Shown in pieces: positions 9,749 through 38,169 of a DNA stretch of 53,672 nucleotides (the first letter of the stretch is position 1; the number at the start of each line of letters is the position of its first letter). Below the pieces are notes generated by a model that searched no databases, was not told the DNA's origin, and saw only the letters and a program-made list of their open reading frames with translations. This DNA comes from Candidatus Woesearchaeota archaeon. Lineage in GTDB: Archaea > Nanobdellota > Nanobdellia > Woesearchaeales > JAGVZT01. The translations under genes were made by a program, and so were the position numbers. Location: contig JAGVZT010000003.1 in NCBI GenBank assembly GCA_018302335.1, positions 1 through 53,672 on the forward strand, read 5' to 3'.

Positions 9749-10900
9749 GTGAACAGGCCTTCAGTACCAATTCTGCCTCTGCTGATGTGGAGCCTGCTCC
9801 TCTACGGATGCAGGCCCGGTGCATTCGCCGTGGTTCCAGACTTTTCACACTGTCCCTTTCTTAATGAATCAGAGGAGTCATTGCGTGTCACAAATGATTG
9901 GTTCGCTAACGAGGTGTATGGCTACAGAATCTCCTCAGAGTGGGAGGATCCTCTTTCCGAAGGATATTTGGATGGGTTTACAGGTGAAAGCTACTACGCG
10001 TCGAGTGGCTTATATGACTTTCAGCCATATTATATGTGGATTTACTCTGTTACGTCTACGAGTGAAATGAGTCTGGATGAATTGAAGGATGTATGGCTCG
10101 ATGCGCACTACAATGCCCCAGGTAGAGATTTGGAAGGCGCGCCAGAACCTGAAATCTGTACGACCAAATTCTCATCTGGAGAGAACGCCTACTTCCTCAA
10201 AGCGAATTATTTCAAAAGTGAGGGCAGCATGGACTTCCACCATTATGTTCTAATGACCGAAAAGGACGGAAAGCAGTATGTACTTACCTATAAAGTAGGA
10301 TATTATGGAAGCTATATGAAGGCGGAAGCCGATTTGAAATTAAATCATATCGCCACGGAAATCCTCACTTCATTTACATTCTCGCCACCACAGAAAGAAC
10401 CGCCTCCCCCATCTACTTCGACGCAGCAGTATATCCACGCCTGCGGAAATGGGGTGTGTGAGGCATACGAATTCCTCGTGTCCTGTGAGCAGGACTGCAA
10501 CCAATTTCCTCAGCATCAGTATACGATGTGCAGGGACACTACCTGGAGTGGAGTTCTGAGGGTAAGGATTCTCGGTACCGAATCTTTCCTTGAGGCGGAT
10601 GGCCCCTTGGGCCCCGACCTTAAACCAAGTGACTGCCGTGACTTTGACGTGTGCGGTGTCAACCGCTATTGTCACACCGTGAATGATGTGCATGAGCCCA
10701 TTTTTGAGATTCAGGCAAGCTCGGCAGCAAGAGTCAACGACCCCTGCGAGCATCTCATCCTCAACTATTCTATCGATGGGGCCGAACAGGGGTGCAGAGC
10801 CCAGGATTGGGAGATTGTAGACCATAAGGTCTATTTCCCATTTGATGCCAAAAAATATGAAATATTGAAGAGTTTTGAGTCAGAATCCAGAGAAGGATAA
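9749..10900 (+). CDS. Lipoprotein with one Cys-rich CGNGxCE module
   Basis: GTG 9749 follows a Shine-Dalgarno-like GAAGAGGAG and a TATA (GATATAAATT) near 9718-9727. The signal sequence ends at a lipobox-like LLYGC (Cys 21). Residues 30-215 are unrecognised, with many aromatic residues. After a Pro/Ser linker, residues 231-370 form a module beginning CGNGVCEAYEFLVSCEQDC and ending with NDVHEPIFEIQ, GAEQGC and a VYFPFDAKKYE tail. The module occurs twice more in the convergent gene at 10910-12610. The gene is clearly AT-richer than its neighbours, suggesting transfer. The CGNG...C..DC opening is a known short Cys motif in archaeal exported proteins; the following ~110 residues are new to me. Confidence 0.75.
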   Translation: MNRPSVPILPLLMWSLLLYGCRPGAFAVVPDFSHCPFLNESEESLRVTNDWFANEVYGYRISSEWEDPLSEGYLDGFTGESYYASSGLYDFQPYYMWIYSVTSTSEMSLDELKDVWLDAHYNAPGRDLEGAPEPEICTTKFSSGENAYFLKANYFKSEGSMDFHHYVLMTEKDGKQYVLTYKVGYYGSYMKAEADLKLNHIATEILTSFTFSPPQKEPPPPSTSTQQYIHACGNGVCEAYEFLVSCEQDCNQFPQHQYTMCRDTTWSGVLRVRILGTESFLEADGPLGPDLKPSDCRDFDVCGVNRYCHTVNDVHEPIFEIQASSAARVNDPCEHLILNYSIDGAEQGCRAQDWEIVDHKVYFPFDAKKYEILKSFESESREG

Positions 10901-10909
10901 CAATCGAAT

Positions 10910-23290: not shown

Positions 23291-23393
23291 TGTCCTGCCC
23301 TGTCTACCCGTCCGTGGCGAGGAACGCCCGTTTCAGGGCATGCAGCATAGATTTAAATAGCGTCCGGAGCCCCGCAGCTCAGGAGGGGGGCAC

Positions 23394-24779
23394 ATGGAAC
23401 TCTCTGCAATTGTCGAAAAGCTCACTGCCAGCGGGCTCACTGTTGACGCGAACGGACGGCTGGTCTCAGAGGACATCGCGGAGGCGGTCGCCGCATCCGG
23501 GACTCTGGAGACCAAGCGAGCCATCGCACCGCATCTTCCGGCCATCCTGGACCGCACGGAGCAGGCCTATGCAGGAACGGAGCAGCAGGTCCTGGTGCGC
23601 GCAGTAAGGGAGAGCTACGAGAGCGGCCAGCGCATCTCCGTCGAGAATCTCCTCCTCTACGACCCGGCTTCCGGGCCCGACCCCGCGCCCAATCTGGTCT
23701 CCGCCCCCGCGCTGAACACCGCTGCCACTGTGCTCCAGAAGCTGAGCGTACCGCTCAGCATCGCGGGCCAGCTCAGCCCCTCGCCGGTGGTGAAGGCGCT
23801 GGGAAAGGCTGCGATGCCGCTCGCCTCGGGCATGAAGTCGCTGAACAAGGCGCAGAAAGAACTCCGAAGGCAGGAGAAGGACCCGGTGCGCATCGCGCGG
23901 TACGGCGTCGCAGGCGTCGGCGCGGTCCTCGAGGCCCTGCCCAACCCTCCTGCGGATGGTCCGCTCAGGAAGTATGTCTTCCTGCCGCTCACCACGGCGT
24001 ACAAGGCGCACATGGCATGGCAGGCGCTGCGGATGCTCTACCGGGACGCGGTGAAGGGAGACCTTCCCCCGCTCGACGAGCTGCGCGCTGACATGCAGCG
24101 GCAGCTCGGCCGCTATCAAGCAGCCCGGGACCGGCTCTCTCCCACGCAGCAGGTCACGAGGGACAACCTTGAGCAGAAGCTCACCCACATCAACCGCTTC
24201 CTCAGGCACCACCTGCACAAGACCTCGCTGAGCGACATCGACATCGAGTTCAGCCTGCTCGGAGCGCGTGTCGCGAGCGCGGACAATGCGCACGACACCT
24301 GCGAGTTCTCCTCGCGTTCGCTGCCTCAGGACGACGGAGTCTTCGCCTGGCAATATGTGCACACCATCTTCCACCTCGACGGCGCGAAGAACGAGGGCAG
24401 GGCAAGCCTCCGCGCGGACCGCGTCCTGGAGGACATGGCGGTGCACGACCCCGCGTACGAGCTGATCCTGCAGAGGGCGCGCCTCGCCGCGGTGGGCCAC
24501 GCCTATCTCGCGAAGGTCATGGGCGAGGCCACGAAGACTCTCGACGAGGAGATGAAGAGGACGGGCAAGCGGGTCGACGGACGGACCAGGGACAGGCTCC
24601 TCCGCACGGTGGTGTACGGCGAGCTGCAGCAGCAGGGCGTCGGCGCAGACGAGCTGCGGGCGATCTGGGAGGGCGCGTTCCCCAAGCAGGTCAAGCTCGG
24701 CCTCATCGCCATCGGCAGGCCGAAGGTCGAATCCACTATCGACTACTACAAGCTCCTCCGCGAGGAGCGCGCGCTGTGA
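23394..24779 (+). CDS. Unrecognised 461-aa protein, first gene of the AAA cluster
   Basis: I cannot assign a family. The protein is helical and starts with a small winged-helix-like segment (SAIVEKLTASGLTVDANGRLVSEDI broken into strands and helices). An Ala/Pro/Ser-rich middle with weak hydrophobic runs (residues 95-145 and 170-215) could contact membrane, and a charged helical C-terminal half holds DIDIEFSLLGARV. TATA (ATTTAAAT, 23351-23358) is about 27 bp before the strong Shine-Dalgarno AGGAGGGGGG, so the mRNA has a short leader unlike the leaderless genes around. The next gene starts 8 bp after the stop, behind its own GAGGTG. Confidence 0.7.
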   Translation: MELSAIVEKLTASGLTVDANGRLVSEDIAEAVAASGTLETKRAIAPHLPAILDRTEQAYAGTEQQVLVRAVRESYESGQRISVENLLLYDPASGPDPAPNLVSAPALNTAATVLQKLSVPLSIAGQLSPSPVVKALGKAAMPLASGMKSLNKAQKELRRQEKDPVRIARYGVAGVGAVLEALPNPPADGPLRKYVFLPLTTAYKAHMAWQALRMLYRDAVKGDLPPLDELRADMQRQLGRYQAARDRLSPTQQVTRDNLEQKLTHINRFLRHHLHKTSLSDIDIEFSLLGARVASADNAHDTCEFSSRSLPQDDGVFAWQYVHTIFHLDGAKNEGRASLRADRVLEDMAVHDPAYELILQRARLAAVGHAYLAKVMGEATKTLDEEMKRTGKRVDGRTRDRLLRTVVYGELQQQGVGADELRAIWEGAFPKQVKLGLIAIGRPKVESTIDYYKLLREERAL

Positions 24780-24787
24780 GGTGTATC

Positions 24788-25639
24788 ATGGACCAGCCGA
24801 CCGACGAGGCAACCGAAGGGGCCAGTGAATCATCTCTCGACGACATCGCCGAGAAAGTGAAGGACGGCATCGGAAAGGGCGCCCAGACTATCGGCAGGGC
24901 CATCCAGGATGGCTACCAGAAGGTCGCCGATGCGGACCTTCCCGGAAAGGCGAGGGAGCTCGGCCAGAAGGTCGGCGATTCCATCGGCGCAGCGGACATC
25001 CCGGGCAAGGCGAAAGAGCTCGGAGCGAAGGCCCGTTCCCGGCTGCAGTCCCTCACCTCGACCGTGAGGAAGCGCGGCATCCAGGGCCTCGTCACCCCTC
25101 CGAAGGACCCGCAGATGCAGCTGGCAGAGCTCGTTTCCGACGTGGAGAGGCTGCTGGGATATGACGCTGGCGCGCAGCAGAACCCCGCGCTGGAGGGCAT
25201 GCAGTACGCCGTCCTCGTTGCTGGCGAGAGCGCAGAGGTGAACGCGCAGCTCGTGGAGACGCTCCTGGAGTACGCCGCGGCACGCGCGACCGACGCGTCG
25301 ATTCCCTATCGTGCGCTCCGCATCGACGGCTCCTACCGTGTGGGGAACGACATCCCGGCGTCGAACAAGGCGCTCGAGGCGCTGCTCGCCGAGGGGATGG
25401 ACCCCTCGAAGGCCAGCATCATCATCGTGGAGGACTTCGACCAGCGTTTTCGCGAGGAGAAGCAGGGCGGGCTTCCGGACTGGATGAACAAGGCTGCGCT
25501 CAAGTGCCTCACCAACAAGGTGTGGCAGCAGGGCAAGGCCAGCAACTACCGAGGGAACTGGCTCCTCATCGCGACCACTGCCGCGCCATCGGAGATGCCC
25601 TACGGCACCAGGGAGAATCTCTTCCAGAAACTCATCTAG
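24788..25639 (+). CDS. Degenerate AAA-like protein with amphipathic repeats
   Basis: Residues 15-95 form LEA/apolipoprotein-like amphipathic helices with an internal repeat (ADLPGKARELGQKVGDSIG, then AADIPGKAKELGAKARS). Residues 125-283 align by eye with the AAA+ ATPase at 31240. LLAEGMDPSKASIIIVEDFD (about 199-218) matches MLNEGMDPNGIGIITIEDVD there, and NYRGNWLLIATTAA matches QYWGNWLILATTNR (sensor 1). The Walker A position reads VAGESAEVNAQ instead of GPGTGKT, and the protein ends soon after sensor 1 with no lid domain, so it is a pseudo-ATPase. ATG 24788 follows GAGGTG; a GTG at 24776 is an alternative. The TAG stop lies in CTAG shared with the convergent gene. Confidence 0.75.
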   Translation: MDQPTDEATEGASESSLDDIAEKVKDGIGKGAQTIGRAIQDGYQKVADADLPGKARELGQKVGDSIGAADIPGKAKELGAKARSRLQSLTSTVRKRGIQGLVTPPKDPQMQLAELVSDVERLLGYDAGAQQNPALEGMQYAVLVAGESAEVNAQLVETLLEYAAARATDASIPYRALRIDGSYRVGNDIPASNKALEALLAEGMDPSKASIIIVEDFDQRFREEKQGGLPDWMNKAALKCLTNKVWQQGKASNYRGNWLLIATTAAPSEMPYGTRENLFQKLI

Positions 25640-26379
25640 TCCTGGTCATCCGGCGTGGCATGAGGGCTCACGAGTTCGCGGTACAGCGCCGCAGGAACGG
25701 TGCTGCCCGCTGCCACCGCATCCTGGACGCGGGTCACCATCGGCTGCACGGCGGAGCGATAGAACGCACGGACAGGCTCCACGATGCGCTGCCTGACCTG
25801 GCTGCGGAGCCACCAGCCGGTCTCGAAGTAGATGGTCCCGCTCGGCGTGCCCTGCGAGTACAGCCAGAGACGGCGGACCAAGTCCCCCGCGTAGAGCACG
25901 GGATTCACGATGGCGATGGTGTGCGCGAGCTGCTGCGGGAATTCCAGGAGCCTCGGTACATGAACGCCGAGAAGGCTGATGAGCGCTGTCGCCCCCAGGC
26001 CGTAGGTAAGCGAGAACGCGAGCGAGTTCCTGGTGTAGCTCAGCGGGTCTTCCTTCTCTCCCATCTCTGCCTCCAGATACGAAGCGGCGCTGCTCATCAC
26101 CTCGCCGGAAGTGGAACCCACCCATGAGCGCACATAGAAACCCAGCAGCGGCTTCAGCAGGAAGTCCATCGGCCGCTTCAGATACTTCTCGACAATCCGC
26201 TCCAGCAGCGGCATCTGGGAATAATCCCGCGCGTCGATGGTGCGCGTGTGCTTGAGCAGCGCGACCATCTGCCGCATCGCCCATCCTGGCCTCTGCCCAA
26301 GTGGCTCTACAGGTGCTTCGAGAATGCTCTCAAGATTGCTCTCGAGGGACTCTTGCTCAAGATTTCCAGTCGCCGCCAC
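25636..26379 (-). CDS. Membrane-associated protein, 247 aa, inside the AAA cluster
   Basis: Unrecognised. An acidic N-terminus (NLEQESLESNLESILEAPVEP) is followed by hydrophobic segments near residues 70-95, 125-145 (SLTYGLGATALISLLGV) and 155-180. The GTG at 26379 follows GGGAGGGGG and lies 37 bp from the TATA (TTATATATC, 26411-26420). Upstream candidate codons run through the promoter. A CCCT-GTTCA-AGGG palindrome at 26387-26399 covers the expected transcription start. It lies between the two plus-strand parts of the cluster on the opposite strand and shares its stop CTAG with the pseudo-ATPase gene. Confidence 0.6.
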   Translation of the reverse strand: MAATGNLEQESLESNLESILEAPVEPLGQRPGWAMRQMVALLKHTRTIDARDYSQMPLLERIVEKYLKRPMDFLLKPLLGFYVRSWVGSTSGEVMSSAASYLEAEMGEKEDPLSYTRNSLAFSLTYGLGATALISLLGVHVPRLLEFPQQLAHTIAIVNPVLYAGDLVRRLWLYSQGTPSGTIYFETGWWLRSQVRQRIVEPVRAFYRSAVQPMVTRVQDAVAAGSTVPAALYRELVSPHATPDDQD

Positions 26380-26386
26380 GCCCCCT

Positions 26387-26400
26387 CCCTGTTCAAGGGG
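26387..26400. promoter_or_regulatory. Operator-like palindrome at predicted transcription start
   Basis: CCCT-GTTCA-AGGG overlaps the start site expected about 26 bp from the minus-strand TATA at 26411-26420. A similar CCCCT-GTCGA-AGGGG covers the predicted start of the gene at 47852-48445, which also encodes a small membrane protein. Confidence 0.35.
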
Positions 26401-26455
26401 ACTGGAGAGTGATATATAAGCCTTCCCACGCCGGTTTGCAGGAAAAGCGAGACGT

Positions 26456-26524
26456 CGGCCGCGTTGCTGAGAAGCATCGGCATGCCTACGAGGCCACTCG
26501 GAAATCCCGACGGCGTGGCGGTCG
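26456..26524 (-). repeat. Dispersed promoter-upstream repeat, complete copy
   Basis: Left end CGGCCGCGTTGCTGAGAAGC, then ATCGGCATGCCTACGAGGCC, ACTCGGAAATCC and right end GGCGTGGCGGTCG. On the minus strand the order matches the family. Left edge about 40 bp from the TATA of the minus gene ending at 25636. Confidence 0.85.
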
Positions 26525-26729
26525 AAGAATCTGAGGGCTTCCAGGGAGCCCCGTGCGGGAAAGGCTACCGACGAAAGGGAGCGCATCACAGTATTTACAG
26601 TATTTTTTTCCACTTGCCAATAAAAAACTTTAAATAGCGACTTCGGTTGCCTGCACACGGCCGCAGTCGGCCATGCACGGGGGGGAGTGGCGCATCTGCC
26701 GCATCTATCCGCGCTGGGGGGGACGCACG
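26525..26729 (+). promoter_or_regulatory. Promoter and long leader of the main AAA operon
   Basis: Between the repeat and ATG 26730 lie a duplicated T-rich segment (CAGTATTTACAGTATTTTTT, near 26590-26608) and a TATA, CTTTAAATAG (26629-26638). Transcription should start near 26659, where a hairpin GGCCG-CAGT-CGGCC (26659-26672) begins. Two G-runs follow (26679-26685 and 26716-26722); the second is well placed as Shine-Dalgarno for ATG 26730. An in-frame ATG at 26673 directly after the hairpin would give a protein 19 residues longer. Confidence 0.5.
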
Positions 26730-27629
26730 ATGACAGACGAAGACAACGGAGGCTACGAGAAGGAGCTCTCCGAGGCTGTTGAGCGGCTCGCAACTGAACA
26801 GGACCCGAAGGAGGCCGAGGAAGAGGAGCCGAAGCCCAAACGACGCTCCCCCCTGGACGGCTTTGCGGACGAGACTGCCATCGCCGCCAAGGACATCGGC
26901 GTGGAGCTTGTGGGGACCGTGCTCGGCGCCGCGCGGGAATGGACGCTCTTCACCGCAGACCCTGAACACTATCTCAACAAGAAGCGCACGGCGTTCGCCA
27001 CCTTCAAGAAGCGGCTCCGCCGGGGGGCGAAGAAGACCGCGCAGAGCGTCGGAGACGGCGCGAAGGACCTCGTCTCCGGAGCCAAGGAGACCGTCGTTGG
27101 CGCGCAGCGGCGCGTCACCGACTCCGCGAAGGAGCTCGGCTACAATCTCAAGGAGAAGGGTCTCGGAGGGGTCGCGAGCGAACTCGTGACATCGACCGGA
27201 GAAGGCCTCGAAAAGACCGTCGCTTCGGTGAGCGAGAGCCAGCTGGCCACCCCGGATGACCTGTACGTGTCAGGCATCGAGAACATCATCGGCCGGTACC
27301 TTCCGGAGCAGGTGCGCAAGAGCGCAGCGGTGGAGGTGCGCACCTTCGTCGCCGCCCTGCAGTCGGACACCGATGCGTTCCCGCTCGACCTCAATATCGG
27401 CAAGGGCGGCAAGAGGAACGAGCTGACGCGGAAGAAGCTGCTCGAGGACTTCGTCGGCTACAGCACCACGAAGGTGGACGAGCTTCTCTACCACCTGAAA
27501 CTGCGCCGGGGAGACTTCACCAGCGACCCCGACCCGACACTCACGCGGAACGAGATACTCGTGCTCGAAGGCCCGGTCGGAGGCCGCATCGCCGCGGTGC
27601 GCGACGCCTACATCCGAGGGAAACCATGA
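26730..27629 (+). CDS. Amphipathic-repeat protein, 299 aa, paralogue of the next gene
   Basis: An acidic N-terminus (residues 1-40) is followed by basic and hydrophobic helices. A stretch with 11-residue-like periodicity (GAKKTAQSVGDGAKDLVSG, then AKETVVGAQRRVTDSAKELG; residues 95-140) resembles LEA/apolipoprotein helices that lie on membranes. Residues 185-299 form a helical domain homologous to the C-terminal half of the next protein: LYVSGIENIIGRYL against LIVDGIDARIGEYG, DTDAFPLDLNIG against DTQALPLDLGYG, and DFTSDPDPTLTRNEIL against NFFEDPDPTLRRKTLD. The stop overlaps the next ATG (ATGA). Confidence 0.7.
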   Translation: MTDEDNGGYEKELSEAVERLATEQDPKEAEEEEPKPKRRSPLDGFADETAIAAKDIGVELVGTVLGAAREWTLFTADPEHYLNKKRTAFATFKKRLRRGAKKTAQSVGDGAKDLVSGAKETVVGAQRRVTDSAKELGYNLKEKGLGGVASELVTSTGEGLEKTVASVSESQLATPDDLYVSGIENIIGRYLPEQVRKSAAVEVRTFVAALQSDTDAFPLDLNIGKGGKRNELTRKKLLEDFVGYSTTKVDELLYHLKLRRGDFTSDPDPTLTRNEILVLEGPVGGRIAAVRDAYIRGKP

Positions 27630-28330
27630 CGGACACGTATACCGCTGACGACCGCTGGAAGGACTACCTGAAGAAGTTCCTCATCATCACGGTCGGCGGT
27701 GCCCTCGCGAGCAGGGCCATCCGCGCGGTCGCGAAGAAGGTCAAGGAGGAAGTCCAGGGCGTCGATGTGAACCAGCTCATCAATGACCCGAAGGCCGAGG
27801 CGAAGCGCCTCGGCGAGAAGTGGAAGAAGGAGAGCGAGGAGGGCATCGCCACCCTGAAGGGGGACGCGGCCCGGGCAAGGAAGCGAGGCCTCGCCGGCAT
27901 CGTCAGCGACGAGGTCGACCGCATCAGGTCCTCTGCCCAGGATGTCCTCTGCAGCCTGGTGGAGGAGCGCTACCCTTTCCCCGCTGAGCTCATCGTGGAC
28001 GGGATTGACGCGCGCATAGGCGAGTACGGCGGCGCCCGGGTGACGCGGGAGCAGGCAGACCTGGTCCGGTCATTCTACCGGAGGCTGTCCCAGGATACCC
28101 AGGCCCTGCCGCTCGACCTCGGGTACGGGGAGGAGAACGCCGACGTGCGAAGGGAGATACTCACGGCATTCGTCGGCCTCGCGACGACTGACCCCTCCAA
28201 GGTTCTTGAACGGCTTGAGGTTGCGGTGACGAAGAATTTCTTTGAGGATCCGGACCCCACGCTGAGGAGAAAGACGCTCGATGCCATGAGGCTGTATGCT
28301 GACCGCATAGGGGGTAAGGACGATGAGTGA
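27626..28330 (+). CDS. Paralogue of the preceding protein, 234 aa
   Basis: Residues 1-100 have one hydrophobic segment (FLIITVGGALASRAIRAV) and charged amphipathic helices. Residues 108-234 repeat the helical domain of the preceding gene product with the conserved phrases DTQALPLDLGYG and EDPDPTLRRK. Unknown function; tandem duplication within the operon. ATG 27626 overlaps the previous stop by 4 bases and the end overlaps the next gene by 8, so translation is coupled. Confidence 0.7.
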   Translation: MTDTYTADDRWKDYLKKFLIITVGGALASRAIRAVAKKVKEEVQGVDVNQLINDPKAEAKRLGEKWKKESEEGIATLKGDAARARKRGLAGIVSDEVDRIRSSAQDVLCSLVEERYPFPAELIVDGIDARIGEYGGARVTREQADLVRSFYRRLSQDTQALPLDLGYGEENADVRREILTAFVGLATTDPSKVLERLEVAVTKNFFEDPDPTLRRKTLDAMRLYADRIGGKDDE

Positions 28331-28691
28331 TGACAGGGATGCCGAGCGGAGAGTGTACCGGGACCTTGAGCAGCGCGCGAGCGAGGACGCAGAGGACACG
28401 GAGCGGAAAGAGAAAGGCGCCTTTGCCACGAAGCTTGAGGAGGTCAGCAAGGAAATCGAAGGCCTCGCCGGGGACGGCGGCTCGCTGGCCACCTACATGG
28501 GCGTCGGAGCGGGAATGGGCCTCCTCGGAGACTACCTCCTGCCCGTGCGCAATCTTCCTATCATTGGGCCTGTCTCGCGGAAGGTCATGACCGCAGGGGG
28601 CGCGCTCTTCGGTGCGCGCGTGTGGTACAAGAAACGAGACCAGATCAAGCGCAGGCGGAAGACGGACGATGACAAGCCGTCGTACGAGTAG
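28323..28691 (+). CDS. Small membrane-associated protein, 122 aa
   Basis: An acidic helical N-terminus (residues 1-55) leads to a glycine-rich hydrophobic part (YMGVGAGMGLLGDYLLPV, then VMTAGGALFGARVWY) and a strongly basic tail (KKRDQIKRRRK). The GxxxG/GxGxG spacing fits packing helices in a membrane. Starts inside the end of the previous gene. No family recognised. Confidence 0.65.
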   Translation: MSDDRDAERRVYRDLEQRASEDAEDTERKEKGAFATKLEEVSKEIEGLAGDGGSLATYMGVGAGMGLLGDYLLPVRNLPIIGPVSRKVMTAGGALFGARVWYKKRDQIKRRRKTDDDKPSYE

Positions 28692-28702
28692 GAGGGGGGA
28701 CC

Positions 28703-29062
28703 ATGGCAGAAGAAGAGAAGGATGCATATCAGTCCCAGATGGGCAATCTGGAGAGGACGCTCCAGCGCGCCGGGGATAAGAAGGAAGGCACCAGGGCTCC
28801 GGGCAAGCTCGAGCAGTTCGAGCAGTCCATCGAGGACACCATTGAGCAGCGCGTGGGAGAAGGAGCCAGTCCGTACGTCACCGCAGGCGCGCACATGGCT
28901 GCCGGCGGGGGCATCGGGGCGCTCGCGGGCAGCGTCATCCCCTTCGTGGGCACAGCAATCGGCGGCGTCGCAGGAGCTGGCTTCGGCCTGTACACCTACC
29001 TGAAGAACCGCTCGCGGCGCCAGAAGAAGGAAGCACTGTACAACAAGGACAAGGGGGAGTGA
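28703..29062 (+). CDS. Glycine-zipper membrane protein, 119 aa
   Basis: The N-terminal 65 residues are charged and helical. A glycine zipper follows (AAGGGIGALAGSVIPFVG, then TAIGGVAGAGFGLYTYLK; residues 72-108), and the tail is basic (NRSRRQKKE). Glycine zippers of this kind form tightly packed membrane helices or oligomers. ATG 28703 follows GGAGGGGGGA. It resembles the preceding protein in plan (charged helix, glycine-rich hydrophobic hairpin, basic tail). Confidence 0.65.
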   Translation: MAEEEKDAYQSQMGNLERTLQRAGDKKEGTRAPGKLEQFEQSIEDTIEQRVGEGASPYVTAGAHMAAGGGIGALAGSVIPFVGTAIGGVAGAGFGLYTYLKNRSRRQKKEALYNKDKGE

Positions 29063-29064
29063 CC

Positions 29065-30177
29065 ATGGTAGAAGAACTTGAGAAAGAGCTTGGCGGCATG
29101 GAGGAGCACTTCAGCAAGGTCTTCGGACAGGAGCACGCATCCCAGGTGAGTGAGGCGCTCGCCTTCGGGCAGAAGATCAGCGAGGAGGATTCCATCCAGG
29201 AGCTGGAGAAGATCACCCAGGACCTCGACGGCATCAAGGGGATGGTCTCCGAATACCTCACCAGAGCCCTGACCTGGAAGGAGCAGCTGAACATCAGCGG
29301 GAAGGTCAACGAGTGGAATCCCCTGCAGCGCGTGCTGCAGCAGGTCAAGGCCATGGTGGGCCTCAGGGAAGGATTCCAGAGCATGCCCCTCTCGGAGCAG
29401 CTCAACTTCCTGTTCTACGACTTCGAGAAGTATGCAGGAGCGCTGAGCGGCATCCGCGACGAGGCGGCGGACAAGGTCCAGAGCGCAGACAAGTACGTCA
29501 CGCAGCTCCGGTCGCAAATCAAGGAAGCGGTGCCGATGATGCGCCAGGCAGAGAAGGAAGTGACCGAGGTGCAGGCCGAGCGGGAGGCTCTCGAGGCGAA
29601 GCTCAGCCAGGAGCTCTCCATCGAGGACAAGGTCCAGCTCCAGGAGGATCACGACACCCTCATGGCGACATGGGATGCCGCGGACCAGCGGCTCCGCGAC
29701 ACCACGTACACCTACCTGCTCTCGCAGAACCTCGTGGATGCCATCCGTGCCTACCGCCAGAACCTGAAAATTCTGGCCAAAGAGGCGGACAAGATGCTGT
29801 ACGACCTGAACCTCACCACGAACAGCCTCAGGCCCTTCATGGGAACGGTGGTGAGCGGCGCCCGCATCGCAGAGGTCCTCACCAATACCCTGGAGAGCTA
29901 CAAGGTGCTGCGCGATACCCTGAACCCGGTGCTCATGCGCACCGCGGACATCGGGGCCATCATGCAGACCGCGCGCGAGAAGACCATGGACGGCACCGTC
30001 GTGAACCAGGAGACCATCGACCACCTGAAAGAGACGGCCCTGCGCGCAGAGGTGCTGGGAAACGCGCGTACCATCGAGAGGCTGAGGGAGGCCAGAAGGC
30101 TGCTTCAGGAGCACGGCATCAAGGTGGAGGGACTCGGCGGAGACGAGCCGTACACCCCGCCTCCCCCGGAGAGCTAG
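29065..30177 (+). CDS. Coiled-coil protein, 370 aa
   Basis: Almost entirely helical with long heptad regions at about residues 130-205 (IKEAVPMMRQAEKEVTEVQ, then AEREALEAKLSQEL) and further helices to residue 330; the C-terminal tail is Pro-rich (YTPPPPES). The segment from about 205 to 320 (LSQNLVDAIRAYRQNLKILA, and SYKVLRDTLNPVLMRTADI) faintly recalls the helical TelA 'toxic anion resistance' family, but I am not confident. ATG 29065 follows GGGGGAG; a GTG at 29059 overlapping the previous stop is an alternative. Confidence 0.65.
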   Translation: MVEELEKELGGMEEHFSKVFGQEHASQVSEALAFGQKISEEDSIQELEKITQDLDGIKGMVSEYLTRALTWKEQLNISGKVNEWNPLQRVLQQVKAMVGLREGFQSMPLSEQLNFLFYDFEKYAGALSGIRDEAADKVQSADKYVTQLRSQIKEAVPMMRQAEKEVTEVQAEREALEAKLSQELSIEDKVQLQEDHDTLMATWDAADQRLRDTTYTYLLSQNLVDAIRAYRQNLKILAKEADKMLYDLNLTTNSLRPFMGTVVSGARIAEVLTNTLESYKVLRDTLNPVLMRTADIGAIMQTAREKTMDGTVVNQETIDHLKETALRAEVLGNARTIERLREARRLLQEHGIKVEGLGGDEPYTPPPPES

Positions 30178-30179
30178 TC

Positions 30180-31262
30180 GTGGAGGGGACGGACCTCCTC
30201 GACGATACCACGTTCCGCCTTGAGGGCGAAGAGAAAAGGGGATACCTGCAGGCGCTCGACGCGCGGCTCGCGGCGCTCTCCAGGGCGGAGATGCCTATCG
30301 GAGAAGAGCTGGAAGGAATCCGGGCATTCCTGGAAGCGGTGGGACAGGGAGACGACAGCGTCACCTTCTACCGCCTCGATTCGGGATTCCCGGACTATTT
30401 CGAGGTGATGAAGCTGCTCGCAGAGAAAGGGGAGGCTCTCAGGCGCATGGAGGACCTCAACGAGGAGTTGCGCATCGGCCTCCTTGCCCCGAGAGGGCGG
30501 GAGCCGGAAGGCACCCTGGCCGAGCGAGCGAGACGCGCCACGGGAACGAACGCCATGTACCTCGCGAAGACTCTGGAAAGGCAGCTTGACGAGGCCGCGC
30601 AGGGCAAGCGGCAATCCCTTGACCTGGAGGGTCTCGCGAGAAGGAGGAAGAGCGCGCTGCTCTACAGGGAGCTCGCGAGCGGGAGCTACCTTGTGGATGC
30701 GGGCCTCGAAGAGGCTCTGGGCGGCAGCGGAACGCTCTCGCTTTCGCGCACCTCCGGGAAGCGGCTGGACTGGAGCAGGGAGCAAGCGCTACTCCGCCTG
30801 ACCATCGCCGGCTTCGACCCTGCGAGCAGGCTCTTCCTGAAGCACGAGGTGGACATCAAGGTGCCCAGGCGCAAGGAGCGCGAGGTGCTCGACTCCGGTG
30901 CGGTGTCCTCCCAGGCAAGGCGGAATCTTGCCCTCCTCTTCGGGCTGAGCAGCCAGGACGCGTTCCTCGCTGCAAGCGCTCACTGGAATCCTGTACGCAG
31001 TGCGCTCTACGCAATCGGCCCGTTCTACAGCGGGCACTCCCGTCGGGCAGAGAAGATTCCCGAATCCGTGCTCTCTCATGTCATCGCCGGAGGGACCCTT
31101 CTGGCGGCCAGCGCCTCCACTGCGCTGAGCGCTGAGGACGCGCACAGCACTCATTATATGGTGCCATCCCCAGATATTGAGGGCCTGCCGTCGCTGCTGA
31201 AGGAAGAAGGCATATCCGCGCTCGTCTACACGCCGTGGGGTGAGATCTTTGCCAGCATCTGA
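30180..31262 (+). CDS. Unrecognised 360-aa protein of the AAA operon
   Basis: Soluble and mostly helical up to residue 200, then more strand-like (LRLTIAGFDPASRLFLKHEV). The last 60 residues contain a small hydrophobic part (VIAGGTLLAASASTALSAE). No family recognised. GTG 30180 comes three bases after the previous stop (TAG 30175-30177), with GGAGAG at 30168-30173. Its end overlaps the putative GTG start of the AAA+ ATPase gene by 23 bases, so the two are probably coupled. Confidence 0.65.
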   Translation: MEGTDLLDDTTFRLEGEEKRGYLQALDARLAALSRAEMPIGEELEGIRAFLEAVGQGDDSVTFYRLDSGFPDYFEVMKLLAEKGEALRRMEDLNEELRIGLLAPRGREPEGTLAERARRATGTNAMYLAKTLERQLDEAAQGKRQSLDLEGLARRRKSALLYRELASGSYLVDAGLEEALGGSGTLSLSRTSGKRLDWSREQALLRLTIAGFDPASRLFLKHEVDIKVPRRKEREVLDSGAVSSQARRNLALLFGLSSQDAFLAASAHWNPVRSALYAIGPFYSGHSRRAEKIPESVLSHVIAGGTLLAASASTALSAEDAHSTHYMVPSPDIEGLPSLLKEEGISALVYTPWGEIFASI

Positions 31263-33156
31263 AGCCGGCTTTGCCCTGAAGGATGATGAATACCAGCGCA
31301 ACATGCGGATTGCCGAGGACAAGTGCAGGGCCCTCAAGCTGCACGACATCATCCACAGCAACTACCGCAGCGGCGATGTGTACTCCTCGGGCCTGAAGAA
31401 CATCAAGTACCGCTTCTCCCTCATGGAAGCCGCGGTGATGGATGCGGTCACCAGCGGCGCGGCGGTCTTCATGACCCTGCGGGACCAGCTCGAACTCAGC
31501 GCCCTCGGGGACGCGCAGCGCGCCGCAAGGGGACTGGACGAGCGCGAGCAGCGGTTCGTCACCCTCTCCGCGCTCTACGCGGGCTGCGCGGAATCTGCGG
31601 CGACGCTGGAGCAGCATCTCGGCGGAGAGCGCCTTTTCGAGAATATGCGCGAAGGCTACCGCACCCATGTCTGGGGCACCGCGAACCAGCCCTTCACCCT
31701 TGCGGACGACAAGGAGGCCCTGCGCGACAGCGTGCTGAAGCTCTATGTCGAGAAGCTGGTCATCAAGCAGGGGGTGATGGAGAAGGTCCTCACCCTCAAC
31801 GGGAACGCGCCGGACAAGAATCTCGGGGCGCTCACCCATGCCTTCTACCAGTCCCTGCTCGACCACCTCGACATGGTCCGGAAGAGCGACGAATACAAGG
31901 ACCTCGAATCGATGTTTTCTCTTGCGCTGGAGCTGCCGCACACCAGGCTCTCGGGATTCTCCCGGCCGCAGTCCCTGGTGAAGCCCGAGGAGGGCGGTTT
32001 CCAGCTAGACGTCACCTGGGAGGATATCATCGGGAACGACGAGGCGAAGGAGCTCCTGAAATCAACGATAGAGAACCTCTTCCGCTACGACCCGAAGACG
32101 CGCACCAATCTCTTCCTCAAGGTCGGCGGGAAGATGCCCCGCACGGTCCTCCTGTATGCAGGCCCGGGAACGGGAAAGACCATGACCCTGAAAGCGGCCA
32201 TCCGCTACGCCCATGAGATGGCGGAGCGCACGGGCAAGCCGCTCCATGTCGTAGAAGTCTCGCAGCTCTTCAAGGACAAATATGTCGGCGAATCCCAGAA
32301 GAAGCTCGACGAGATGCTCAACGAGGGGATGGACCCCAACGGCATCGGCATCATCACCATTGAGGACGTCGACGCGCTGTTCATGAACAGGAGCGGCGAG
32401 GACACGAGCGGCGGGAGCTCCGAGGTCAACGCCCTGCAGACCATCCTCAACAAGCTGGAGGGCGTCCGCACGCAGTACTGGGGCAACTGGCTCATCCTGG
32501 CGACCACCAACCGTGCGCACGGCACCGACAAGGCCCTGAAGGAGCGCCTGGCGCGGACGCGGGTGTACTGCCCTGGCGCGCAGACCGAGGAGGAGTTCAC
32601 CCGGCTCATCAAAGGTCTCTCGAAGCCCGCCCTGGACGCGGGGTACTTCACCATCACCCCCAAGGAGGAGAAAGAGGCCGCGAAGCTGTGCGTTGAGTTC
32701 GGCTACCACGGAAGGATTATCCGCAACGCCGTCGAATCCCTGCTCACTAGGGCGGGCATCTTCGAGCTCGGGGACGAGCTGCTGCTGGAGAGCGACGAGG
32801 AGAAGTTCCGGCAGGCGGTGCTCCAGAAGTTCAAGCCGATACGCGGCACGGACCTCCTGGAATCCCTCCGCAAGGCGGCCGAGGACGACGAGCGGGAAGC
32901 GCAGTACGACATGGAGGAGCGCACCAAGGCGGCCGCGGAGCGCTGGTACGTCCAGCGGAAGGCGGACATCATCGCGAACAAGCGCTTCTCGAAGGAAGAG
33001 TCGCAGGAGATGATAAGCACGCTGGACAAGCTCAAGGAGGACGGCAAGCTCCAGGAGTATCTCAAGCAGGTCCGCGACGAGGTCGTGGAGGAGCTCGAGG
33101 AGAAGGTCCGCGAGCTGCGGGAAGAGAACGAGAGGCTCAAGAAGAAAAAGAAGTAG
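31240..33156 (+). CDS. AAA+ ATPase with C-terminal coiled coil
   Basis: The only complete ATPase of the cluster. Residues 1-240 are a helical N-terminal domain of unknown type. The AAA module follows: ITWEDIIG-type entry (VTWEDIIGNDEAKELLK), Walker A GPGTGKT at 308-314, Walker B IITIEDVD ending near 378, sensor 1 LILATTN near 418-424, a finger region LKERLARTRVY, then a lid helical domain. Residues 545-638 are a charged coiled coil ending in a poly-Lys run. Classical AAA subfamily features (CDC48/FtsH/katanin) are partly present, but no protease or second ATPase domain is seen. GTG 31240 lies inside the previous gene; ATG 31303 is an alternative start without a clear Shine-Dalgarno. Confidence 0.88.
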   Translation: MRSLPASEAGFALKDDEYQRNMRIAEDKCRALKLHDIIHSNYRSGDVYSSGLKNIKYRFSLMEAAVMDAVTSGAAVFMTLRDQLELSALGDAQRAARGLDEREQRFVTLSALYAGCAESAATLEQHLGGERLFENMREGYRTHVWGTANQPFTLADDKEALRDSVLKLYVEKLVIKQGVMEKVLTLNGNAPDKNLGALTHAFYQSLLDHLDMVRKSDEYKDLESMFSLALELPHTRLSGFSRPQSLVKPEEGGFQLDVTWEDIIGNDEAKELLKSTIENLFRYDPKTRTNLFLKVGGKMPRTVLLYAGPGTGKTMTLKAAIRYAHEMAERTGKPLHVVEVSQLFKDKYVGESQKKLDEMLNEGMDPNGIGIITIEDVDALFMNRSGEDTSGGSSEVNALQTILNKLEGVRTQYWGNWLILATTNRAHGTDKALKERLARTRVYCPGAQTEEEFTRLIKGLSKPALDAGYFTITPKEEKEAAKLCVEFGYHGRIIRNAVESLLTRAGIFELGDELLLESDEEKFRQAVLQKFKPIRGTDLLESLRKAAEDDEREAQYDMEERTKAAAERWYVQRKADIIANKRFSKEESQEMISTLDKLKEDGKLQEYLKQVRDEVVEELEEKVRELREENERLKKKKK

Positions 33157-33157
33157 G

Positions 33158-34804
33158 ATGGCATACTATTACGTCTCGAAGGACCCGAAGAAGGGGGAGG
33201 TGCTGGACGAGCTCGCCCGGGAAATCCTGGGCCGGTACAGCCAGGACGCCGCGACCGGCAATCGGCTGATGCGCCGGATCCGGGACACGTTCCCTGCGAT
33301 AGAGGCGATGCTGCGCGGAGAGGTGCGGGAGGGCCAGCGCGAGGCCTTCAAGTCCGCCGCGAGGAACCTCAACGAGATCGTGCGCAGGACGAACATGCCG
33401 GCCCCGTTCCTACAGGCGCTCGCGGACGCGCCGGACCTCAACCTGGGCAGGCTGCGGGATCTGTCCGACTACATCCTCTCCGCGAGGACGCACAGCTCAC
33501 TCGATCTCCGGAAGCTCTATCCTCCCCTGGAGCGCCTCGTCCGCTCCACTGGCTCATTCTCCTCGCTGGAGCAGGTCGTGGGGACTTTCAATCGCCTCGT
33601 CGACGAGGGAGAGCTCATCCCGGAGTATGTGGACACCGTGGCGAGCCTCCACAGCACAGGCTGGAATATCGGAGCGATGGCAGACATCATGAGCGGATGC
33701 TACCGTGCGCTCGGAGGCTCTGCCGCGTCCTCGGTGCGTGCCCTCGTGGAGACTCTCCCGCAGGGTGCCTTCCCTCTTCTGCAGCAGGAGCTGGGGCTCC
33801 TCGCGAAGCAAGGAAAGAAAGAGACCGCCCAGACGAGCACCCTGCGCATCACTGAGCAGGCCGGAAGCCTCGTGGTGCGCGACGGCGTGTACGGCGCAAC
33901 GCACTGGGGCCTGTACCTGGGCATCGCCGGCGCGCTCGCCCTGCGCTATGAGCTCAACGCGGAAGCAAGCGAGGCGAAGCTCTTCGAGAAGCGCGTCACC
34001 GACGGAACCTTCCTCATCTTCAAGGACGGCGAGCGGAGCATCATGCTGGAGCAGGGAGCGGACTTCATGCGGATCGAGAACCTCTCCAAGGACGAGCTGC
34101 AGGGCTTTCTTCTGGAGCTGCAGGAGAGCGCTCCGTATCTCACCGCTGCCTACGCCGGGATTGACGCCCTCGGCCAGGTGAGCGGGGTGAGGCACCTTGC
34201 GGTCCAGGAATCAGGGAAGCGCTCCTCCACGGCTCACCGGAGCCAGGGCCTCACCGTGCTGCTCACCGGCATCGACCTCAAGCGCCGCGCGGTGGAGGAG
34301 GTGACTCTCCAGGTCAATACGCCCGAGCGCGCGGCACTGTACGAAGAAGTCATCGAGGCGGCCATGCAGCCCGAGGTCCCGGCGTCAGCCGCCGTCCGGC
34401 CGGAGGGCGTTCATGTCACGTTCATGCTGAAAGATTACCCCATGGCCTCGGAGAAGCAGAGCATACGCGCGCTGCTCGAGACGGTGGACCACCATATAGA
34501 GTTCGAGGCGGAGTCGGGCCAATCCTCTCTCCTGGAGACGCTGTGCTATCTCAACAGCCATGTACCCGCAGAGAGGATACCTGAGCTGCTCAAGCTCGGC
34601 GCCGAGAAGCTCAGCGCCGCGGGCGGGCTCTTCCTCTACCCGAAAACGTTCTCGCGGAGCTTCGAGCGGATGCAACCCGAGGAGCAGCGGGCAACCCTCC
34701 GCATGCTCTTCGCGCTGGAGCCCGGACCAGAGCTTGCCGAGGCGAGGCAGTGGCTCACAGCGAATTATCGGGATCTCCTGACTGAACACGGCCTCGGACG
34801 ATGA
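33158..34804 (+). CDS. Unrecognised 548-aa protein following the AAA+ ATPase
   Basis: Starts two bases after the ATPase stop. The N-terminal 230 residues are helical. A beta-rich central part follows (TSTLRITEQAGSLVVRDG, FLIFKDGERSIMLEQGADF and LTVLLTGIDLKRRAVEEV), and a helical C-terminus (LLETLCYLNSHVPAERIPEL). No signal peptide or membrane helix, apart from one short hydrophobic run (GLYLGIAGALALRYEL). A cytosolic partner or substrate adaptor of the ATPase is inferred from position only. Ends with ATGA overlap to the next gene. Confidence 0.65.
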   Translation: MAYYYVSKDPKKGEVLDELAREILGRYSQDAATGNRLMRRIRDTFPAIEAMLRGEVREGQREAFKSAARNLNEIVRRTNMPAPFLQALADAPDLNLGRLRDLSDYILSARTHSSLDLRKLYPPLERLVRSTGSFSSLEQVVGTFNRLVDEGELIPEYVDTVASLHSTGWNIGAMADIMSGCYRALGGSAASSVRALVETLPQGAFPLLQQELGLLAKQGKKETAQTSTLRITEQAGSLVVRDGVYGATHWGLYLGIAGALALRYELNAEASEAKLFEKRVTDGTFLIFKDGERSIMLEQGADFMRIENLSKDELQGFLLELQESAPYLTAAYAGIDALGQVSGVRHLAVQESGKRSSTAHRSQGLTVLLTGIDLKRRAVEEVTLQVNTPERAALYEEVIEAAMQPEVPASAAVRPEGVHVTFMLKDYPMASEKQSIRALLETVDHHIEFEAESGQSSLLETLCYLNSHVPAERIPELLKLGAEKLSAAGGLFLYPKTFSRSFERMQPEEQRATLRMLFALEPGPELAEARQWLTANYRDLLTEHGLGR

Positions 34805-35880
34805 CACATGAACTCCTGGCTCTTGAAGGGAAGGCACGGGAGCGCTATCTGAGTGCGCTCACGAGCCTCGGGCTCCAGGGCGCCCTGCCGGACATCATCC
34901 ATGTGGACCGGAGCGGCCTCTCTCCGGAAGCGGCCGAGGTTTTTGGAGCCGACTACCTCAAAGGCAGGGCCGTGCTCGCCGCTTCCCAGCAGGCGCAATC
35001 GGCCACCCTGGAACGCGAATATTCGGACTTTCATGACATCCTCTCCGCTGCCATGAAAGCTCTTGAGCCTCTCCTCTCCCTCGTGCTCGACAGGGAGGCG
35101 GCCGTGCTCACCTTCGAGCGCGTCATCGGCTCCTGGGGGGAGAGCTACTCTCTTGAAGGCCTGCTGGACGGCGAGCTCAGGAGCATGCGCGGGGACAGCA
35201 GGGCTGAGGTCCGGCTGGAGACCCCTGGCCGCACGATGGAGCGCGCCAAGCGGGCGCTGGAGCTGAGACGGGCGGTCACTCCCGAGCGCATCGACGAGCT
35301 CTTGACCCGCAGGGAGGAGCTGGAGCAGTGCGCAGAGGACCTGCGCATCCTCGGCGCCTTCTACAACCAGCTGGAAATGGAGAAGCTCGCCAGCATTCCC
35401 GGGCGGACTGCGATTCCCCTGCGGGAGCTGTTCCAGTACAAAGCGGGAGGAAGGCGCTGCCATGTCTTTCCCGGACTGTATCCGCTGGTCGTGTATGAAG
35501 GGCCTGATCTCCGCGAGACATCCTTCATGGTGAGGCTGGACGACAGGCGGCGCCTCTATTCCTCCCTCCTGCGCCAGGGACTTGCGCGCCTGGACCGCGG
35601 GCTGCTCGTCCGCGAGACCGACCGCGCGGGACTCCGTGCGCTGGAGGAGAGCGGACGCGACCCCGCGTTCCTCGCAGATTGCAGGAAGGATGCGGTGCTG
35701 CTCTACACCGCTCTCCGCGAGCGGCTCCCCGAGGATTTCCGGATGCTGAAGGAGCTGTACATACGGCATTCTCACGGGGAGCGCATCCCTTCCGTCTTCG
35801 AGCAGCTGCCCACAGAAAGCATGCGTGCCGTGCTCGCCAGCGACCTTCCCCTCGTCGAGGGATGGCTGCGCGATGGCTGA
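34801..35880 (+). CDS. Unrecognised helical protein, 359 aa
   Basis: Charged, mainly helical, no membrane segment. Many short Leu-rich helices (ELLTRREELEQCAEDLRIL); a central strand-containing patch lies around residues 205-255 (AGGRRCHVFPGLYPLVVYEG). ATG 34801 overlaps the previous stop as ATGA and the end overlaps the last gene by 8 bases. Function unknown; likely a subunit of the same complex because of the tight coupling. Confidence 0.65.
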   Translation: MTHELLALEGKARERYLSALTSLGLQGALPDIIHVDRSGLSPEAAEVFGADYLKGRAVLAASQQAQSATLEREYSDFHDILSAAMKALEPLLSLVLDREAAVLTFERVIGSWGESYSLEGLLDGELRSMRGDSRAEVRLETPGRTMERAKRALELRRAVTPERIDELLTRREELEQCAEDLRILGAFYNQLEMEKLASIPGRTAIPLRELFQYKAGGRRCHVFPGLYPLVVYEGPDLRETSFMVRLDDRRRLYSSLLRQGLARLDRGLLVRETDRAGLRALEESGRDPAFLADCRKDAVLLYTALRERLPEDFRMLKELYIRHSHGERIPSVFEQLPTESMRAVLASDLPLVEGWLRDG

Positions 35881-36433
35881 CACCCTCCTGAAATGGAAAG
35901 CCTACCTCCTGGAGCAGGCCAAGAGCCACTCTTTCCTTGCCGATGCCCTCCGCGGAGGGGAAGGCTTCCTGGACCGGGCGCGTACAGTGGAGCGGCAATA
36001 TCAGGAGCTCATGGACACCCCGGTGCCGCGGGCCCTCTACGCGAGAGAGGACCTGGAGGAGTTCGGCGAAACCTTCGACACGCACATCGGGACATTCATC
36101 TCTTCTGTCGAAGGGCTGACGGGAGCGCAGCAGTCCTGCAGCAGGCAGCTCCTGCGGGAGTGCGTCACCGGCGACGCGCCATGGAACTACCTGAACAGGT
36201 ATCTCGCGGAAGATGGTCTCCGGAATCTTGCGGAGCTGAGCAGCACCCTGGACCGGATGGTGACGCTCTGCTTCCCGGGCGAACTGCTCGCCTGCTCACG
36301 AGAGCGCTTCCTCACCCAGTACCACAGGCTCCCCGAGACAGAACGCATCTACCTCGATAACGAACTGGAGCGGATGCTGCTCGACGGAGCGCTCGACCTG
36401 GACCTCGCGGAGCTCAGGGAACTGCTCCGCTAG
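35873..36433 (+). CDS. Last gene of the AAA operon, 186-aa helical protein
   Basis: Helical and charged, unrecognised. The start ATG 35873 (MADTLLKWKAYLLEQ) lies within the end of the previous gene, downstream of GAGGG; longer in-frame readings would cover more of the preceding gene. It closes the ten-gene unit that begins at 26730. Nine bases later a copy of the dispersed repeat fills the gap to the convergent subtilase gene. Confidence 0.65.
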   Translation: MADTLLKWKAYLLEQAKSHSFLADALRGGEGFLDRARTVERQYQELMDTPVPRALYAREDLEEFGETFDTHIGTFISSVEGLTGAQQSCSRQLLRECVTGDAPWNYLNRYLAEDGLRNLAELSSTLDRMVTLCFPGELLACSRERFLTQYHRLPETERIYLDNELERMLLDGALDLDLAELRELLR

Positions 36434-36526: not shown

Positions 36527-38038
36527 CTAGCGTTCCGTCGCAAGCTCGACCGCGGCGCCGAAGTTGATGCGTCCGGTGCCGATGTACTTGTCCGTCTCGA
36601 CGCGGTCCACTCCCTCTCGGAGGACAGCGCGGACCGCCTCGACATCCCCGCCGAGCTCAGGATTCGCTGCGAGCACCAGCGCGACCTCTCCCGTCACGTG
36701 GGGAGATGCCATGGAAGTGCCTTGCAGCACCACATAGTGCTCCCCTACGATGGGCGCGCGGTTGCCGAACTTGTGCTGCGCTGCCAGGATGGAGAGGATG
36801 TGGGTGCCGGGCGCGCCGACATCGTTCTTCTCCCCCCAGTTGGAGAAGCTCGCCCGCTTCCCGTCTGGAGTCATGGCGCCGACCGCGATGACATTCGGGT
36901 TGTTCGCCGGGGAGAAGCCGCGCGTGTCGGAGTTGCTGTTTCCCGCAGCGACCACAATGATGGTCCCCTGGGACACCGCGTAGCTGATGGCCTCGTCCAC
37001 GATTTTCTGGCCAGCTCCGGCCGGACCGCCGAGACTCATGTTCAGCACGTCGGCGTCGTGCTTCGCGGCGTACACGATTCCTTGGGCGACTGTCGCCCAG
37101 GTCCCCCTTCCGGAAGCGTCCAGCACCTTCACGGGCAGGATGCGGCCCTCCCAGGTGATGCCGGCGATGCCGACCCCGTTGTTGGTCTCAGCAGCGATGG
37201 TCCCCGCGACATGGGAGCCGTGCCCCTGGTCGTCGTAGGCGTCGCCGTCCTTGTTGATGAAATCATAGCCGACGATGTTATCGATGTAGCCGTCGCGGTC
37301 GTTGTCCCTGCCGTCCAGGATCTCTCCGGAGTTGTGGATGACGCGCGAGTCGATGTCCTCGTGCTTCCAGTCGACGCCCGTGTCCACCACGGCGATGATG
37401 ATGTCATCGCTTCCCCTGGTGACGTTCCAGGCTCCCTCTATGTTGCTGCGACGCAGCCCCCAGAGGTCTTCTGCTCCATGACCCCAGGAATTGCTGCTCT
37501 GGTAGAACGGGTCGTTCGGAGCGCCCTTTGCCGGCTTGTCGGTGTCTCCGGGCTGGATATTGGCATCCACCACCTCATAGGGGAGCAACTCCACCATGAG
37601 ATTTGCCTCGGCCCATTCGACGCCAGCCTGCGAACGGTACTGCTCGATGAGACGCTGGACATCCGCGCCCTGCGGGACGTCCACGATGAACCAGTTGTCC
37701 AGCTCGTATTCCCCGCTGACCGGAGCGAGACGTTCATAGCTCTCGCCCGCGATGGAGCGGTTCAGGGCATCGACGCCCGCGAGCCCCGTGACCACATTGC
37801 CGTCAGCCTGCGCGGAGGGAGTGAGCGGCGATTCGAACTTGACGAGGAGTTCTCCCGAGGGGTCGTAGGCAGGCGTGCTCCTTCCCCCCACAAGGTAGCC
37901 GAGACTCGCGATGCCGGTGGCAATAGCGGTGGCGCCGAGCAGGACTTTCCTCACTCCGCTGGACTGCGGGGCCTTGCGGTCTGCAGCAGTGGCGAGTGTG
38001 CCCTCTAGCGTAGATACCGATTCCTCAAAGTCAGCCAT
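36527..38038 (-). CDS. Membrane-anchored subtilisin-like serine protease 1
   Basis: S8 family protease. A charged cytoplasmic N-terminus leads to a membrane anchor (VLLGATAIATGIASLGYLVGG, about residues 32-52). A propeptide-like region follows (60-150), with FIVDVPQGADVQRLIEQY. The catalytic triad is Asp in IIIAVVDTGVDWKHEDI (about 219), His in GHGSHVAGT (about 273) and Ser in GTSMASPHV (about 442). DGRDNDRDGYIDN between Asp and His resembles a calcium-binding loop. The expected mRNA 5' end carries a hairpin (38052-38066) just before Shine-Dalgarno GGAGGGGAG. Paralogous to the next gene; lies next to the AAA cluster. Confidence 0.92.
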   Translation of the reverse strand: MADFEESVSTLEGTLATAADRKAPQSSGVRKVLLGATAIATGIASLGYLVGGRSTPAYDPSGELLVKFESPLTPSAQADGNVVTGLAGVDALNRSIAGESYERLAPVSGEYELDNWFIVDVPQGADVQRLIEQYRSQAGVEWAEANLMVELLPYEVVDANIQPGDTDKPAKGAPNDPFYQSSNSWGHGAEDLWGLRRSNIEGAWNVTRGSDDIIIAVVDTGVDWKHEDIDSRVIHNSGEILDGRDNDRDGYIDNIVGYDFINKDGDAYDDQGHGSHVAGTIAAETNNGVGIAGITWEGRILPVKVLDASGRGTWATVAQGIVYAAKHDADVLNMSLGGPAGAGQKIVDEAISYAVSQGTIIVVAAGNSNSDTRGFSPANNPNVIAVGAMTPDGKRASFSNWGEKNDVGAPGTHILSILAAQHKFGNRAPIVGEHYVVLQGTSMASPHVTGEVALVLAANPELGGDVEAVRAVLREGVDRVETDKYIGTGRINFGAAVELATER

Positions 38039-38051
38039 TGCACTCCCCTCC

Positions 38052-38066
38052 GTCCGCAGCGCGGAC
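38052..38066 (-). promoter_or_regulatory. 5'-terminal leader hairpin of subtilase gene 1
   Basis: On the minus strand GTCCGC-GCT-GCGGAC (6-bp stem, 3-nt loop) starts within a few bases of the transcription start predicted from the TATA at 38094-38102. It is followed directly by GGAGGGGAG and the ATG at 38038. The second subtilase gene has the same layout with a different stem sequence. Confidence 0.5.
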
Positions 38067-38169
38067 GTCTCGGATGTGCAGGCGAACCTGCGGTTATAAA
38101 CCTTATGGCCCTGAGCCGAAATGTATGCGGGATGAGGTCCTCAGCAGGCGTCCGTGCTGGGATGCCTGT

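Follow-up and report, generated by a model that had tools for sequence, protein, structure and literature searches.

A conserved modular AAA+ system very probably underlies the gene cluster at the centre of the window, the 53,672-nucleotide stretch of DNA analysed here, which is the entire contig C70 of a Candidatus Woesearchaeota genome (1.56 Mb, 75 contigs, 93% complete). Comparison of gene neighbourhoods shows that a conserved core, made up of a B6-type protein, the AAA+ ATPase B7, a B9-type protein and one further upstream gene, is combined with differing modules from locus to locus. The modular reading is favoured by a distinct AAA clade, a core found at nine loci, the swapping of modules, a fusion in protein A2 and a single TATA box preceding ten genes. 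We tentatively regard the cluster as a variant of an accessory, undescribed and modular AAA+ remodelling system of the order, used in conflict or defence. A narrower version, which we hold more loosely, would make it one of two versions in this genome of an order-specific immune or conflict class with a constant AAA+ motor, constant adaptors and swappable effectors.

Organization of the cluster

Genes were called with a home-made codon-model caller trained on the same genome, which recovered every open reading frame of an earlier note on this DNA as coding-like. Archaeal markers exceed their NCBIfam cut-offs in the window (signal peptidase I) and on another contig (aRF1). The cluster consists of two plus-strand units, A1-A2 (23394-25639) and B1-B10 (26730-36433), with the minus-strand gene M between them, and its GC content equals that of the flanking DNA. 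A TATA box, TTTAAATA, precedes each unit on the plus strand, at 23352-23359 for A1-A2 and at 26629-26636 for B1-B10. The motif TTTAWATA occurs nine times in the window against 0.05 sites expected, and no copy lies within the B1-B10 run. Apart from B6/B7, the junctions in this run are overlaps of 4-8 nucleotides or gaps of 1-11 nucleotides. The ten tightly coupled genes described earlier are thus near-abutting or overlapping and all coding-like, and the two genes upstream are real and also score as coding. What the data show is tight spacing behind a single TATA box; the stoichiometric co-translation that had been proposed from the overlaps is a further step that we can only infer.

The first unit encodes A1 (23394-24779, 461 aa, no assignment) and A2 (24788-25639, 283 aa), in which a LEA-like amphipathic N-terminus precedes an AAA domain without a Walker A motif. 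A GTG start at 24776 would give A2 a 4-nucleotide overlap with A1; the ATG at 24788 scored better. M is best read at 25636-26379 on the minus strand, with a GTG start, about 247 aa and TTATATATCA upstream at 26419-26410; an alternative start is the ATG at 26277. The opposite membrane gene of the earlier note therefore exists, but its product is only moderately hydrophobic, and its membership in the cluster is uncertain.

The second unit, all on the plus strand, begins with B1 (26730-27629, 299 aa; an alternative in-frame ATG lies at 26673), which has a LEA-like amphipathic stretch followed by a C-terminal domain of about 140 aa. B2 (27626-28330, 234 aa) is paralogous to B1 and to two genes on contig C45 of the same genome. 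B3 (28323-28691, 122 aa) and B4 (28703-29062, 119 aa) encode hydrophobic glycine-rich hairpins, and B5 (29065-30177, 370 aa) is coiled-coil-like. B6 (30180-31262, 360 aa) precedes the AAA+ ATPase B7 (31303-33156, 617 aa), whose start is ambiguous: GTG 31240 overlaps B6 by 23 nucleotides, and ATG 31303 leaves a 40-nucleotide gap. The orphan B8 (33158-34804, 548 aa), B9 (34801-35880, 359 aa) and the orphan B10 (35873-36433, 186 aa) complete the run.

The AAA clade of B7 is distinct and, in the samples searched, confined to one order

The complete AAA+ ATPase placed at 31240 by the earlier note holds up, with ATG 31303 as another possible start. B7 matches Pfam AAA (E=1.5e-18), and its AAA domain is intact, with a GPGTGKT Walker A motif, a Glu-Asp Walker B and a sensor-1 asparagine. 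Judged by its profile matches, the domain is of the Cdc48/AFG2-D2 type; AFG2 and Cdc48 are its nearest solved relatives (PDB profile matches to 2.4e-50), and Vps4 is also among them at a lower score. The N-terminal region of about 200 aa matches no AAA family in Pfam and no family among PDB sequences. In a tree of AAA domains, the B7 clade stands apart from the Cdc48, the PAN and a third AAA protein of the genome with a support of 1.0. Single-sequence AlphaFold2 models were poor, with mean pLDDT values of 34.5 for B9 and 39.4 for B7, and gave no usable structure.

To follow the clade, a profile of 16 family members was used, whose matches at E <=1.5e-39 are set off by a gap from the Cdc48/PAN background. 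Of 335 genomes from the order, mostly drafts, 49 (about one in seven) carry a B7-clade AAA protein. None was found in G001 (99% complete), the sole other genome of the same family that was searched. A phylum-level sample of 371 genomes, for which the share lying outside the order is not given, yielded 32 genomes with a match, every one of them in the same order. The lineage specificity suggested earlier thus extends to the AAA clade, in the samples searched.

Across the 49 loci, two residues never vary, the Walker A lysine and the sensor-1 asparagine, and 45 loci retain the arginine finger. The second acid of Walker B is Asp at 31 loci and Glu at 18, B7 reading Glu-Asp; hydrolysis may be slow or switch-like as a result. 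Four scans of viral contigs found no relatives, no prophage linkage was seen, and one scan of genome contigs returned only a generic bacterial AAA match.

A core of B6, B7 and B9 homologs is retained at nine other loci

Neighbourhoods of B7-type genes were fetched from related genomes, genes were called in them and the encoded proteins were clustered. B9 falls in a family of ten members (hhalign probability 100%, E=1.5e-53), and the family matched by B6 has nine (72.9%, E=3.1e-5). In nine genomes, at one further locus each, homologs of both enclose the AAA gene, the B6 type directly upstream and the B9 type directly downstream. One of these loci, on contig C42, is a second copy in the window genome; at another, in G166, the AAA protein falls under the strict threshold. 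In the window, the genes for B7 and B9 are separated by that for B8. At all nine loci, a gene of about 350-440 aa, from either of two families, lies 5' of the B6 homolog. B5 occupies the same position, with weak similarity that does not establish homology. PDB searches with B6 and B9 profiles returned nothing significant.

The synteny in related genomes that the earlier note proposed as a check is therefore present for the B6-B7-B9 core and does not extend to the whole cluster. The 335 genomes of the order hold no relatives of B8 or B10, B1/B2 occur in a single one of them, and no relatives of M were found. A1 has distant relatives in three of the genomes, where they stand alone; it is thus probably not a core component and was rejected as one. 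Absences of partners are soft because many neighbourhoods stop at contig edges.

Differing modules accompany the AAA gene at other loci

At 13 loci, the surroundings of the AAA gene include an Mrr_cat-like nuclease, as grouped by clustering, with one member matching Pfam at 2.7e-12. Six loci carry a MoxR-like AAA protein together with a VWA-like protein; the Pfam matches of the latter are sub-threshold and a D-x-S-G-S-M motif is present. At 11 or 12 loci, the gene that follows directly encodes a protein with a P-loop motif. The window operon contains no nuclease, VWA, MoxR or ubiquitin-like (Ubl) gene, and elsewhere in the genome there is one weak MoxR-like match.

A ubiquitin-like E1/JAB cassette occurs at two loci, on contig C42 and in genome G044. 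Two ThiF regions (3.6e-46 and 5e-59) are present in the E1-like protein of the cassette, and the double-ThiF profile has strong matches in only 2 of the 335 genomes, in both cases adjoining the AAA operon (L042:13579-18834 on contig C42, and L039:419-7601). The JAB protein in G044 matches Prok-JAB at 5.5e-5, just below the curated cut-off, and that in C42 has a loose motif only. Neighbouring E2-like and Ubl-like proteins are guesses at the level of motifs. Because the AAA proteins of the two cassette loci are not sisters in the tree, either the cassette or the AAA genes have moved.

Large proteins are encoded downstream of the AAA operons at L112:11119-13239, L117:13705-16032 and L049 (positions +2 and +3). 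By eye, they resemble a Rossmann domain of the dehydrogenase type with a beta-propeller after it; the one that was scanned had no Pfam match.

Amphipathic and membrane-type partners in the window

The degenerate AAA relative noticed earlier is A2, whose AAA region aligns to the B7 family with a profile-profile probability of 97.9% and, by inspection, has lost Walker A. By this comparison, it is a paralogous copy of the B7 AAA domain. By uniting an amphipathic stretch with a B7-type AAA copy, A2 ties the A1-A2 pair to the B operon. The LEA-like stretches of A2, B1 and B2 are indeed amphipathic, with mean helical hydrophobic moments of 0.29-0.34 compared to 0.21 +/- 0.04 for window genes; the similarity among them reaches only about 1 in 100, so their common origin is not proven. 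Shuffle tests on amphipathic helices, as on coiled coils, lose the periodicity of the sequence.

The two glycine-rich membrane-type proteins are B3 and B4, homologous hairpins at 8.5 SD (0 of 1000 shuffles). An 85-aa protein from contig C45 is a third homologous hairpin (8.2-9.3 SD among the three; 8.2 SD for B3 with the C45 protein). The single genome of the 335 with B1/B2 proteins has a second pair on contig C45, where a B1/B2-like pair and a B4-like hairpin (L126:7731-10348) occur without an AAA gene. In L050, the upstream LEA-like gene shows a similarity to B1/B2 that is unreliable, and we claim no kinship from it. Around AAA genes in general, small N-anchored proteins are mildly enriched (odds ratio 1.8), and at 25 of the 49 loci they lie within the co-directional run.

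Comparison with known systems

As the earlier note had supposed, no known system was recognised: comparison with Pfam, NCBIfam, PADLOC and PHROGs and with sequences from the PDB assigned none of the partners of B7. A literature search that left subscription journals mostly uncovered found no published description of DPANN AAA clusters or Ubl-coupled AAA operons. The best PADLOC matches of B7 are TRIP13 of CBASS (2.7e-10) and IetA (4.5e-5); both are weaker than its matches to PAN/Cdc48 models (1.7e-16), which points to generic AAA similarity. Among the partners scanned, none has a PADLOC match except B5 to LmuB (9e-4, coiled coil), and the operon genes yielded neither a cyclase nor a HORMA family. 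CBASS and IetAS were accordingly dropped, on generic AAA similarity and absent partner genes. Gas-vesicle and Ter readings were also dropped, as none of thirteen proteins matched Gvp or TerB/TerD in Pfam at E up to 1. No Pfam match to ESCRT-III (Snf7) or to an MIT domain was seen in the cluster.

A close parallel in overall build is offered by the MoxR-vWA 'FtsH ternary' conflict systems, found mostly in multicellular bacteria, whose third component carries a pair of FtsH-type AAA domains of which the first is inactive (Kaur et al. 2020, PMC7159879). These systems combine a classical-clade AAA+ protein with MoxR-type AAA, vWA and Ubl-conjugation genes and unique alpha-helical proteins in a patchy distribution (PMC7159879). 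The loci described here are similar in having a constant motor, changing modules, a patchy distribution, partners that are orphans, and nuclease, VWA and Ubl genes linked to them. However, B7 has one AAA domain and an unrelated N-terminal region, and the inactive AAA A2 is a separate protein rather than fused to B7. MoxR/VWA-like partners are limited to six related loci, and Ubl and JAB genes to C42 and G044; neither set is present in the window operon.

B7 resembles Cdc48/p97, AFG2 and PAN in its D2-type AAA domain, but scores 60 bits where the NCBIfam cut-off for PAN is 500 and 59 where that for CDC48 is 803. It also differs in belonging to a separate clade (support 1.0), in having no match to the Cdc48 N domain, and in the Asp found as second Walker B acid at 31 of the 49 B7-clade loci. 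Bacterial operons combining Ub-like, E1, E2 and JAB proteins are known (Iyer et al. 2006, PMC1779556). The cassettes at C42 and G044 are similar in their E1-like and JAB proteins, but here the E1 has two ThiF regions and adjoins an AAA operon, and the E2 and Ubl identities are motif-level guesses.

A proposed mechanism and its alternatives

We propose that B7 would form a hexameric, Cdc48-D2-like motor, with B5, B6 and B9 as its adaptors or scaffold. A2, with its amphipathic tail and without Walker A, may tether or regulate the B7 ring, and the amphipathic B1/B2 and the B3/B4 hairpins would locate its work at the membrane. ATP hydrolysis could then assemble, extract or release the B1-B4 membrane module. 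The modules themselves may be interchangeable effector or targeting parts: membrane hairpins here, and Ubl conjugation, an Mrr nuclease or MoxR-VWA elsewhere.

Among the possible roles, we favour conflict over membrane remodelling and over Ubl-dependent proteostasis, though not strongly. The signs of a defence role are indirect: patchiness, the swapping of modules and the linkage to a nuclease. Beyond generic AAA there is no match to a defence family, no viral linkage is apparent and the GC content is that of the flanks; N-anchored proteins are merely mildly enriched, and the window variant lacks nuclease, VWA, MoxR and Ubl genes. The amphipathic and hairpin proteins of the operon would also fit into a membrane-remodelling, envelope or secretion machine, serving for example host contact in a host-dependent archaeon, in which B7 would extract or disassemble B1-B4 assemblies much as Vps4 acts on ESCRT-III. 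The small N-anchored proteins in the co-directional runs and the presence of Vps4, at its lower score, among the PDB relatives of B7 point the same way. We consider such a machine rather doubtful, however: it leaves the linkage to nuclease and Ubl genes unexplained, and B7 lies outside the clade of the genome's other AAA proteins. The absence of the AAA clade from most genomes of the order further argues against a general envelope function.

That AFG2 and Cdc48 are the closest solved relatives, and that each of the two genomes with a double-ThiF E1 has it next to the AAA operon, is consistent with a Cdc48-like unfoldase for quality control or regulated turnover, using Ubl tags where the cassette is present and other adaptors elsewhere. 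We nevertheless judge this unlikely, as the cassette occurs at two loci to which the window operon does not belong, the operon encodes no protease and the distribution is patchy. The orphan status of most window partners and the stand-alone relatives of A1 would also suit a chance neighbourhood of unrelated genes crowded in a small, dense genome. This is very improbable for a cluster with ten near-abutting genes behind one TATA box and the A2 fusion; for B6, B7 and B9, it is already contradicted by the order retained at nine other loci, while A1, M, B8 and B10 may be chance neighbours.

If the conflict role is correct, and this genome is DPANN as it appears to be, a widespread modular AAA+ system would bear on DPANN defence. 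If the role is not defensive, the clade would still represent a new motor to which a ubiquitin-like cassette is linked, and would help to understand how unfoldases of the Cdc48 type came to work with ubiquitin-like tagging.

Other genes in the window

Convergent on the B operon lie two tandem minus-strand subtilases (36527-39597), each with an N-terminal hydrophobic segment and paralogous to each other (E=8e-124); at other loci, no subtilase adjoins the AAA gene save for one motif match in L116. Two further genes, convergent with one another at 9749-12610 and encoding 383 and 566 aa, have about 48% GC on a 63% GC contig. Their products look secreted or membrane-anchored and have CGNGxCExxE-type cysteine motifs in common, and the pair was possibly acquired recently.
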